Positions 47,482 through 50,676 of a stretch of DNA of 64,000 nucleotides are shown here, piece after piece. Where the stretch lies: contig NZ_FWZU01000003.1 of NCBI RefSeq assembly GCF_900177375.1, positions 124,001 through 188,000 of the forward strand, written 5' to 3'. The notes beneath the pieces are model-generated. The model did no database searches, was not told the DNA's origin, and worked only from the letters and a program-made list of their open reading frames with translations. The translations under genes and the position numbers were made by a program. This DNA is from Desulfovibrio gilichinskyi (GTDB taxonomy: Bacteria; Desulfobacterota; Desulfovibrionia; Desulfovibrionales; Desulfovibrionaceae). The stretch's first letter is position 1. Each line of letters opens with the position of its first letter.

Positions 47482-47533
47482 TTACTACATTATATATAGC
47501 ATGCCCAAAAAATGGGTCTTATCGCTCATAATT

Positions 47534-47565
47534 AAACCTGTCCGGATTTCCTGGCAGGTTTTTTG
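47534..47565 (+). terminator. Rho-independent terminator
   Basis: AAACCTG (47534-47540) and CAGGTTT (47555-47561), with an additional inner TCC/GGA pairing, followed by T-rich sequence. Ends thyX. Confidence 0.75.
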
Positions 47566-47566
47566 T

Positions 47567-48451
47567 TTTTTTATGCGGCAAACGTGACCGAAATTGGTTT
47601 CAAAATATTTTAACTTTAATCTCGGGCAAAATATTCTAGCCTCAACAGGGTTATTTTCTTAAATGCGAATTATTTTTATTAATTTTTAATTTTAAATTTA
47701 AAATTCTTTATTATGATACGTTATAAGTAATAAAACGTGTTTTAGGAGTTTTTTTAGCAATTTTGTTATATAAAGTTGCAATTTTGTAGTTTCTAATCCC
47801 ACCTTATTAGTCTGTATTTTTAGCATAATTTTTATTAAAAATAATTATGATGTGGATAGAATTTTCTTTAGAGTTCGTTTTTGAAAATAAATAGCAGTAT
47901 TATCCGTTGGTTTATACGCCCTAAGCGATGTCAAGTATATATTAATCCAATTAAATTGGTATATTATTAAATGTTCTAAATTTAAAAGACTGCAAGCCCT
48001 TTGTTTTACTGGGCTCAGCTAAGTGTTATTTAAACTGTATTTTTTATAAGATGTTACGTTTTTGGATATTATTTTTTAATAATTAAGTTATATTAGTATG
48101 TTAAATAGGTTGTTTTTGTTTTTTGTGCTAAAGTACAAATTTATTATAATGAGTAGAAATTTTACTGACAGCGAGAGAAAGTGCGAAATTTTATGAAAAA
48201 TAGAGATAATTTTAAATTAATCTGTGGAAAAAGTTTTCCACAGATGTTTAAAAAAATGATATTGACACTCGTCAGGCCAAGAAACATGCAGGTTTATACG
48301 GTTGCAAAGATCTGGCTATAAATGCTTGTAAAGTAAAAAATCTTTTATAAATTAATACGTTAAGTTGTAGAAAAAGATAGGATCAACATCGGGAGCTCAG
48401 TGGTATATTACGAGTTGATGTAATGTTGTCCTTTGACTTAGTTATCGCTCC
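47567..48451. other. Candidate chromosomal origin region (AT-rich, upstream of dnaA)
   Basis: Nearly 900 bases with no credible gene, extremely AT-rich from about 47640 to 48220 (possible unwinding element). It contains a near-consensus DnaA box TGTGGATAG at 47851-47859 and an inverted box pair at 48221-48244. A TTGACA at 48262-48267 may belong to the dnaA promoter, with a poor -10. The location directly before dnaA supports an origin or at least DnaA autoregulation. The small number of clear boxes and absence of dnaN next to dnaA are reasons for caution. Confidence 0.5.
48221..48244. promoter_or_regulatory. Inverted pair of DnaA boxes
   Basis: TGTGGAAAA (48223-48231) and TTTTCCACA (48234-48242) are two head-to-head DnaA-box variants (TTTTCCACA against TTATCCACA), within a perfect inverted repeat with 11-base arms. 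About 210 bases upstream of dnaA. Confidence 0.65.
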
Positions 48452-49801
48452 ATGATGACAGACAGCTGGAACAAAATTTTAAAATTTCTTGAGAAAGGGC
48501 TTAACCCCGGTCTATTCAAAGTTTGGATCAAACCTTTGAAGGCTGAAGTTAGCAATAACTCCATTAAGCTATATGCTCCTAATGAGTTTGTTGCTGCGTG
48601 GGTTAGAGACCGACTTTTAGACAATATTACCGAGGCAGGGACCCAGGTTCTTGGCGCTCGTCCAAAGGTTGAAGTTGGTGTTAACAAGGTTGCTGATAAG
48701 CCTGCCGGTTTAGTGCGCCCTAAAAGCCCGCAACAGGTGCAAACAAGCATGGGGCTTCCCATGATGCGCCCGTCGATAACTGCGAGAGTTCCGCGCTGGC
48801 GTTTTTCGTTCGATGACTTTGTCGTTGGAGATTCAAACCAGCTGGCATGTGCCGCATCGAAAAGCCTTTGCGATAATTCTCTGCCTGGAGATCAGCTGTT
48901 CCTGAGCTCAACTCCCGGGCTTGGAAAAACTCATTTACTGCACTCGATCGGTCAGGGGCTATGTGCTACCAGTAATAAGCAGCATGTTTCCATTGCCTGC
49001 CTTACAGCTGAAGAATTTGCCAATAGAATGGTCATGGCTCTAAAGGCCGGCGAAATATCAAGGTTCAAATCCGAATTCAGAGATAATGTTGATTGTCTTC
49101 TTCTTGAGGATGTTCATTTTTTTCAAGGCAAGCACAAGATGCAGGATGAGATTCTTGAAACTTTGAAATGCTTGCAGCTCCGCGGCTCAAAAGTTGTTAT
49201 GACAAGTTCTTTTCTACCTCGCGAACTTGAAAAAGTTGATCCGCAGTTGGTATCCAGATTTTGCTCAGGCCTTTTAGCTGTTATCGCTACTCCTGATTTT
49301 GAGACTAGAAAACGCATTGTGCAGAGCAAAGCTATCCGGCTTGGTACTCAGGTGCCTGATTCTATATCAGAACTGCTGGCAGACCGTATTACAACGGATG
49401 TGAGACAGCTTGAAAGTTGTCTGCAGAACCTTGTTCTCAAAGCAAGATTGCTCAATAGAAATCTGACACAGGAATTAGCTTGGCAGGTCCTTGAGAATTA
49501 TTCCGTGGAAAATAAGAATCCAAGCTATGACTCAATTGTTGAGCATATCTGTCGTTCTTACGATATTTCCACTGATCAGCTTCGTTCCAAAAGCCGGAAA
49601 CGTCAGGTTGTTCTGGCCAGGAATACAGCTTTCTTTCTTGCTCGCAAATATACCGAACTATCTTTGAAAGATATTGGCGAAAGGCTCGGCCGCAGACATT
49701 CAACCGTGATTAAAGGGATTACTAATGTTGAACGGGAAATTTCTTTGCAAACACCTCTTGGCAGGCAGTTGCAGGATACCGTTGCCCGCTTAACTCCATA
49801 G
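48452..49801 (+). CDS. dnaA: Chromosomal replication initiator DnaA
   Basis: A 449-residue DnaA. Domain I (1-75) contains WNKILKFLEKGLNPGLFKVWIKPL and APNEFVAAWVRDRLLDNI. Domain II is short (about 76-115). Domain III (about 116-345) has DDFVVGDSNQLACAA, Walker A TPGLGKTHLLHS (about 154-165), Walker B DCLLLEDVHFF (about 214-222) and sensor 2 TTDVRQLESCLQNL. Domain IV has YTELSLKDIGERLGRRHSTVIKGI. Divergent points are Walker B ED instead of the usual DD, and RRHSTV instead of RDHSTV. It binds DnaA boxes and opens the origin. No strong ribosome site. Followed by a truncated paralogue, not dnaN. Confidence 0.94.
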   Translation: MMTDSWNKILKFLEKGLNPGLFKVWIKPLKAEVSNNSIKLYAPNEFVAAWVRDRLLDNITEAGTQVLGARPKVEVGVNKVADKPAGLVRPKSPQQVQTSMGLPMMRPSITARVPRWRFSFDDFVVGDSNQLACAASKSLCDNSLPGDQLFLSSTPGLGKTHLLHSIGQGLCATSNKQHVSIACLTAEEFANRMVMALKAGEISRFKSEFRDNVDCLLLEDVHFFQGKHKMQDEILETLKCLQLRGSKVVMTSSFLPRELEKVDPQLVSRFCSGLLAVIATPDFETRKRIVQSKAIRLGTQVPDSISELLADRITTDVRQLESCLQNLVLKARLLNRNLTQELAWQVLENYSVENKNPSYDSIVEHICRSYDISTDQLRSKSRKRQVVLARNTAFFLARKYTELSLKDIGERLGRRHSTVIKGITNVEREISLQTPLGRQLQDTVARLTP

Positions 49802-49910
49802 TCATACTTGCCCGTTTTTTATTTTAAGGATATTCATTGCATCCGGAGTTGATTTGTCGTAAGACCAGCCCCCTTGTTTTAAACTGAAACGAAACTTTCA
49901 GGGGTAGGAA

Positions 49911-50615
49911 ATGAATTCCGATTTGTGGCATTCGATTAAGAAAAAATTAAAGGTCCGCATTAATCCCGTTCTGGTTAAGGTTTGGGTTGATCCCCTTTCC
50001 GCCAGATATGAAGATGGTGTAGTCCAAATCACTGCGCCTAATGAATTTGTAATGAATTGGGTACAAGAACATCTTTTAGGAACTATAAAAGATGCGGCTC
50101 AGGAAGTGCTTTCCACCGAAGTGGGGGTGACTATAGCTCTTCAGGATAATGCGCTAGGTGAGCTGAAAGATTCTGAATTCATTACGGATGTTACAGCATA
50201 TTACGCTGTGGAAGATATCTTGAAAAGTATCAATCGAATGAAAGATATTGTTCATACTCGGTACGGAATAAGTCCTATTGAATTTTCCGGTCTGACTGAG
50301 AAAAAATCTTTACCTGAGATTAAACTTGAAGATCAATCATTTGATTCTATTCTTGACGCTGTTTTGGAAGCTTTTGCAGTAAATTTCAGAGAGATAATGG
50401 AGCAGGAAACTGACCATGCAACTCTTGCCAGACGGGCTTTGTACTATCTTTGTTTCAGATATGGCATTCCGCCTGAAGAAGTAGCTTTGAATATGGATTG
50501 TACTGTTTCAGATGTTAAATTCGGCGCAGCTGAACTTGAAGAAGAAATAGAGTTTGCAATTGATAACGGTGATAATTTGGATGAGCTTCTGTTGAGGCTT
50601 TTCAAAAAAGATTAA
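49911..50615 (+). CDS. DnaA-like paralogue lacking the AAA+ domain
   Basis: A 234-residue protein. Residues 1-75 are a clear DnaA domain I, near-parallel to its neighbour (LWHSIKKKLKVRINPVLVKVWVDPL and APNEFVMNWVQEHLLGTI against the same segments of DnaA). No Walker motifs occur. Residues 143-213 align without difficulty to DnaA domain IV (SFDSILDAVLEAFAV..., LARRALYYLCFRYGIPPEEVA..., AAELEEEI) but the DNA-binding signature is replaced by MDCTVSDVKFG. It therefore looks like domain I joined through a helical linker to a degenerate domain IV. Modulation of DnaA through domain I contacts is inferred. It lies 109 bases after dnaA on the same strand and ends at a strong terminator. Confidence 0.85.
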   Translation: MNSDLWHSIKKKLKVRINPVLVKVWVDPLSARYEDGVVQITAPNEFVMNWVQEHLLGTIKDAAQEVLSTEVGVTIALQDNALGELKDSEFITDVTAYYAVEDILKSINRMKDIVHTRYGISPIEFSGLTEKKSLPEIKLEDQSFDSILDAVLEAFAVNFREIMEQETDHATLARRALYYLCFRYGIPPEEVALNMDCTVSDVKFGAAELEEEIEFAIDNGDNLDELLLRLFKKD

Positions 50616-50642: not shown

Positions 50643-50676
50643 AAAAGGTCTGACTATTTTTAGTCAGACCTTTTTT
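50643..50676. terminator. Bidirectional terminator
   Basis: AAAAGGTCTGACTA and TAGTCAGACCTTTT form a perfect 14-base stem with a T6 tail, between the DnaA-like gene (plus) and the PhoH gene (minus). Confidence 0.92.

Follow-up and report, generated by a model that had tools for sequence, protein, structure and literature searches.

Domain I is a hub of DnaA control, and to our knowledge the proteins that bind it are mostly not built from it, DiaA, YfdR, HobA and SirA being cases in point. Hda, a paralogue of DnaA, acts on DnaA and inactivates it; it retains AAA+ but has neither domain I nor domain IV. Escherichia coli DiaA and YfdR, Helicobacter pylori HobA and Bacillus subtilis SirA are described as binding DnaA domain I (PMC5448010, PMC5742627), and the Rickettsia protein DALP is described as a variable plasmid protein with DnaA_N at its C terminus (PMC4316617). 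Proteins with DnaA_N and no AAA domain are already known, in other architectures, from DALP and from the NCBIfam family NF005206 (PRK06672, hypothetical protein), in which the DnaA_N-like stretch occupies positions 194-283 of a 341-position model.

The window, the whole stretch of 64,000 nucleotides that was analysed, contains a gene for a 234-residue protein, here named MLD (motorless DnaA-like protein), that is a DnaA paralogue and not a DnaA. With DnaA (TIGR00362; DnaA_N, Bac_DnaA, Bac_DnaA_C) it shares domain I, the order of the remaining domains and the fold of domain IV, but the AAA+ domain and the DnaA-box signature are absent, domain IV is acidic, and the TIGR00362 score of 33.8 bits does not reach the cut-off of 343.9. 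The proposed site of action of MLD, domain I, is also that of DiaA, YfdR, HobA and SirA; in contrast to these proteins, MLD carries DnaA's own domain I. Its domain content is the reverse of that of Hda. Whereas DALP has a C-terminal DnaA_N, that of MLD is N-terminal (residues 4-65) and is followed by domain IV, and the gene is chromosomal. MLD residues 5-95 match the stretch of NF005206 with 25 bits, the cut-off of that family being 416. A description of an MLD-like protein was not found in the titles and abstract starts of the papers listed by searches of the open-licence PMC literature. MLD would be a natural separation-of-function experiment, with domain I in the cell without the motor; it raises the questions of how motor and motorless paralogues share an orisome and how a DNA-binding fold is kept under charge reversal, and it draws attention to a bacterial lineage in which two different full-length DnaAs coexist.

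Gene pair, distribution and origin

48452..49801, + strand: D2, adjacent full-length DnaA, the genome's second dnaA (Pfam, TIGR00362 scoring, genome comparison)
49911..50615, + strand: MLD gene, 234-residue motorless DnaA paralogue (open reading frame list: ATG at 49911, stop at 50615)
L070:6940-8241: D1, the dnaN-linked DnaA

The coordinates, strand and length of the MLD frame are exactly those given in the first-pass annotation, and the gene starts 109 nt past the D2 stop. In all 17 genomes of the genus MLD lies on the same strand as D2, 109-348 nt downstream of it. The genome carries two full DnaAs, namely D2 in the window and D1 on another contig, in a dnaA-dnaN-gyrB-gyrA cluster whose dnaN, gyrB and gyrA we take to be such from reading their sequences. 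D2 has a full DnaA_N score and reaches 340.6 bits on TIGR00362, just under the cut-off of 343.9; its P-loop fails the Walker A pattern (0/17 in the genus, 0/12 outside) and its Walker B reads E-D instead of D-D. D1 displays a standard P-loop in 17/17 genomes, with a DnaA_N score of 21.6 bits, below the cut-off. In one genome (G004:C1:2641940-2643237) D1 is split over two frames and is therefore either broken or misread there. A D1 query against 58 relatives gave a single match in 14, two of them strong (G019, G026) and 12 weak, as expected of D2, so that D2 is the commoner type in this sample.

Sampled stretches of two complete genomes place the change of sign of the GC skew at D1, between 4.230 and 4.240 Mb in G016 (D1 at 4.234 Mb) and between 0.865 and 0.885 Mb in G001 (D1 at 0.872 Mb), one 20-kb sample in the positive half of G016 being near zero (-0.002). 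An origin of G016 near position 1, proposed from parAB, was overruled by the 5-kb skew pointing to D1. Since it is D1 that sits at the skew origin in the two complete genomes sampled, about 690 kb (G016) and 660 kb (G001) away from MLD, MLD is not an oriC-side gene by this measure. The earlier statement that MLD adjoins dnaA is thus correct as to adjacency, which extends to 17/17 genomes, but the neighbour is the second dnaA and not the one at the skew origin.

Full-length MLD occurs in 17/17 genomes of the genus, presumably Maridesulfovibrio, its own included, and in 0/41 of the others among the 58 relatives searched; 39 of these 41 gave partial matches, mostly to domain I of full DnaAs with a few weak ones elsewhere, and two gave none. 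A profile search of 288 genomes of the family returned matches in 199. The full-length ones number 17, with E 7e-98 or better; they all belong to the genus and lie downstream of D2, no full-length copy being seen elsewhere in the family set. The next best match has E 2.5e-21, and the other matches among those listed (down to E 3.6e-13) cover profile positions 1-92 in frames nearly all longer than 440 residues, the short-frame exceptions among the matches listed being 155 residues in G466 and 293 residues in G465. A search with the C-terminal domain over 395 genomes of the phylum found only MLD's own genome, no other member of the genus showing a match in that draw. Two loci turned up in a scan of named genome contigs, and since their contigs agree in length with those of G007 and G010, both among the 17, they add no member. 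A phage or plasmid origin was rejected, as plasmid, phage and viral-contig collections gave zero MLD matches and neither PHROGs nor PADLOC families matched at E<=1.

A tree of domain I (51 rows, 77 columns) groups the MLDs in one clade (100/98) and the genus D2s in a second (98/92). MLD sits on a long branch (1.59) and is not placed as sister to D2, nor does the tree resolve another sister position; the bootstrap did not converge, and the program gave a long-branch attraction warning. The simplest account is that MLD would have arisen from a second copy of D2, made ahead of the divergence of the genus, that shed its AAA+ part, because MLD stands beside D2 in 17/17 genomes and its profile matches D2 better than D1.

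Domain architecture of MLD

49911..50141, + strand: domain I, residues 1-77 (Pfam DnaA_N 2.8e-15; modelled fold)
50142..50336, + strand: linker, residues 78-142, replacing the AAA+ motor (alignment, model, dN/dS)
50337..50597, + strand: domain IV-like region, residues 143-229 (hhalign, shuffles, Foldseek, charge)
50403..50417, + strand: acidic/polar loop at the place of the basic loop of DnaA, residues 165-169, shorter by one residue than that of D2 (alignment)
50496..50513, + strand: DCTVS(D/E), residues 196-201, opposite (G/C)RRHST of D2 (alignment)

Pfam DnaA_N matches MLD over residues 4-65 with E 2.8e-15 and 56.2 bits (cut-off 24.6), and all 17 MLD orthologues match it at E<=1, in agreement with the N-terminal domain I announced in the first pass. 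Residues 1-77 are 43% identical to D2 (BLASTP), and phmmer against PDB sequences gave three matches, each to domain I of a DnaA chain (2e0g, 4tps, 8btg). Because the full-length AlphaFold model is poor over residues 1-80 (pLDDT 30-50 in 10-residue blocks), this part was modelled separately with five other domain I rows, two from orthologues and three from D2s. The resulting model averages pLDDT 89.5, and in Foldseek its top five matches all come from DnaA domain I, led by 4tps (E 4.4e-6); having been built with D2 rows, the model confirms the fold and is not independent proof of homology. Trp-6, Trp-25, Phe-46 and Trp-50 are present in 17/17 MLDs and Asn-44 in 16/17, and the same five positions are likewise kept in 17/17 D2s of the genus. 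Trp6 is described as the self-contact of E. coli DnaA domain I, Trp25, Asn44, Phe46 and Trp50 as contacts with DiaA, DnaB or Hda, and Glu21 as used for DnaB (PMC5448010, PMC5742627). Position 21 is Leu in MLD and D2 alike, while the dimer face of MLD differs from that of D2 at position 8 (Ser versus Lys/Glu) and position 10 (Lys versus Leu).

The AAA+ motor is absent, as originally annotated: the Walker A pattern occurs in 0/17 MLDs, a pattern that fails also on D2, which has a Pfam AAA+ domain with a variant P-loop, and no AAA family is found among the Pfam matches of the 17 MLDs. The linker that stands in its place evolves faster than both flanking domains, with dN/dS of 0.12-1.12 compared with 0-0.09 for domain I and 0-0.10 for domain IV, values that come from seven chosen, partly non-independent pairs of 136 possible, with dS near saturation in one pair and few synonymous linker changes in two. 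A conserved helix spans linker residues 93-114 (50187-50252), with Asp-93, Ile-103, Ile-107 and Arg-109 present in 17/17, and is possibly a docking helix.

The C-terminal domain of MLD is homologous to DnaA domain IV, a real relationship that is sub-threshold in Pfam: Bac_DnaA_C scores 15.5 bits, under the cut-off of 31.5, and reaches E<=1 in 14/17 orthologues (best 1.9e-4). BLASTP of MLD against D2 leaves domain IV unaligned and whole-protein hhalign returns domain I and not domain IV. At the level of the domain, hhalign of the 17-row MLD alignment against 29 rows of D2 domain IV (17 from the genus, 12 from outside) reaches a probability of 95 and an E value of 3.6e-8; the alignment runs collinearly through 87 columns, interrupted by two gaps of one residue each, and bears out the line-up with domain IV proposed in the first pass. 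The score of 45.8 is matched by 0/300 column shuffles (maximum 22.4) and compares with 15.9 for the reversed profile; a single-sequence alignment of MLD with D2 domain IV scores 60 against a maximum of 47 over 2000 shuffles. An HMM of the C-terminal domain was run on the 929 reading frames of 15 loci from other genera, 14 of which had been chosen for holding D2. Its top eight matches are D2s (E 3e-7 to 3e-4), rank nine is a chance match that resembles NusB (E 7e-4) and the six remaining D2s rank lower (E 0.003-0.9). A 156-residue frame in G023 (E 0.007) was rejected as a domain IV relative, its sequence being one that we take to be NusB, and E values near 1e-3 are consequently noise in that search. 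On the hhalign, the shuffles and the HMM ranking of the D2s, chance similarity was rejected.

The predicted structure agrees with this kinship. AlphaFold of MLD, with three orthologous rows and zero DnaA rows, gives pLDDT 70-80 over residues 141-220, and the DNA-binding domain of M. tuberculosis DnaA (3pvp) occupies ranks 1 and 2 of the 165 Foldseek matches of this C-terminal model (probability 1.00, TMt 0.74, rmsd 5.6-6.1, E 6.6e-3 and 8.8e-3), none of the 165 reaching E 0.001. The domain is missed by the D1 profile (16 rows; hhalign probability 0.6); as the D2 profile finds it, the kinship of MLD domain IV is with D2.

The residues that contact the DnaA box, the loop Arg399 and the recognition-helix motif, are absent from MLD on a residue matching that is partly presumptive. 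RRHST of D2 aligns with CTVS(D/E) in 17/17 MLDs (CTVSD in the window), so the replaced recognition motif reported in the first pass is confirmed, and DCTVS is itself invariant in all 17. The MLD loop position that we presume to match Arg399 is Thr in nine MLDs, Asn in seven and Leu in one, and the residue after it is acidic in 15/17. Another residue, Arg in 17/17 D2s of the genus, is deleted in MLD. Arg399 of E. coli DnaA is described as the minor-groove arginine, the recognition helix also reading the box (PMC5742627). Five arginines of the MLD domain, Arg-160, Arg-174, Arg-175, Arg-183 and Arg-229, are invariant in 17/17. Arg-174 aligns with an invariant Arg of D2, presumably the equivalent of Arg407 of E. 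coli. From residue 142 to their C terminus the 17 MLDs carry a net charge (K+R-D-E) of -7 to -13, whereas the corresponding region of D2 has +6 to +9 within the genus (17 sequences) and +5 to +12 outside it (12 sequences). The first-pass annotation called this domain degenerate, and the box signature is indeed lost; the domain is, however, under strong purifying selection, with inverted charge and an invariant DCTVS. Likewise MLD is, as had been proposed, a dnaA derivative that kept domain I and lost the motor and the box signature, but its domain IV is not merely degenerate. Since it is conserved, charge-inverted and marked by an invariant motif, the domain IV-like region very likely has a job of its own; it is the least explained and most interesting part of MLD.

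Possible modes of action

Our preferred reading, to which we give a probability of roughly 0.5, is that MLD is an accessory regulator of initiation, derived from dnaA and kept throughout the genus, that would act through domain I. Domain I of MLD would pair with domain I of DnaA through the Trp6 face, or alternatively compete for, or carry, the binders of domain I through the Trp25/Asn44/Phe46/Trp50 face, and in either case would act without binding ATP or DnaA boxes. Having no ATP-binding motor, MLD cannot join an AAA+ filament, and the retention of Trp6 and Phe46 makes a tuning of initiation through domain I plausible. Against this reading, domain I might bind other partners alone, Glu21 is replaced by Leu, the dimer-face residues differ between MLD and D2, and in two genomes MLD lies away from the skew origin. 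We lean towards a negative, damping role, in which MLD would be a natural 'blank' subunit, because DnaA should be diluted by a subunit that has neither motor nor box binding; the facts fit a positive adaptor almost as well. A more specific form, a self-derived antagonist that would join DnaA assemblies through domain I and block or titrate them with the charge-inverted domain IV, is rather less probable.

That MLD is such a positive adaptor, binding DciA, the DnaB helicase or some other partner and delivering it to the orisome like DiaA or DnaD in other bacteria, seems rather unlikely to us as a specific proposal: domain I has mostly kept its partner face and the linker helix could dock a partner, but Glu21 is missing and DciA is found in 40/40 genomes searched, 17 with MLD and 23 without it, which also excludes MLD as a substitute for that loader. 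The shift of charge from +6 to +9 in D2 to -7 to -13 in MLD under purifying selection, together with DCTVS and the other invariant residues, would suit an acidic domain IV that does the work itself, as a DNA mimic or decoy in the shape of DnaA domain IV that binds DnaA or some other replication protein, domain I serving as address label; acidic composition is by itself no proof of mimicry, and the five invariant arginines speak against it, so we consider it unlikely. The same domain could instead have kept its helix-turn-helix and read another site, for example at its own locus. The predicted fold of a DnaA DNA-binding domain and the invariant Arg-174 would fit such a regulator of altered specificity, which the strongly negative charge and the loss of the basic loop and recognition motif render distinctly improbable. 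The low score that Pfam gives the C-terminal domain is what a decaying, functionless duplicate of dnaA might leave, a reading that is extremely improbable and was rejected in view of frames open in 17/17 genomes, invariant motifs and dN/dS of at most 0.10 in both domains over the seven pairs.

Flanking sequences

49828..49910, + strand: leader before MLD, containing the conserved promoter-like block GGATATTCATTGCA and a ribosome-binding site (leader alignment)
50643..50674, + strand: terminator-like hairpin after the MLD gene (14 pairs)

The block at 49828-49841, which ends 69 nt before MLD in the window, is GGATATTCATTGCA or a near copy of it in most of the 17 leaders and is a putative promoter. 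In G013 and G007 the corresponding position reads TATAAT, and an apparent hairpin, seen by eye, precedes the block in one subclade. A structured RNA leader was rejected, since RNAalifold gave four pairs, none of them with changes on both sides and hence no conserved fold, and no Rfam family exceeded its gathering score over the window. The 3' end of MLD is 27 nt short of the terminator-like hairpin, whose statistics are weak (two such sites in the region against 2.8 expected in shuffles), and the gene that follows on the opposite strand is one that we take to be phoH-like.

The gap ahead of D2 (47482-48451) has a GC content of 27.5% and contains an inverted pair of DnaA-box-like sites at 48223-48242, 229 bp before the D2 ATG. 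The first arm of the pair is found at -229/-230 in 14 of 15 genomes of the genus (G005 and G006 left out) and the full palindrome in eight of the 15, a pattern that would fit autoregulation or a relic origin. More conserved blocks lie between the pair and the start of D2.
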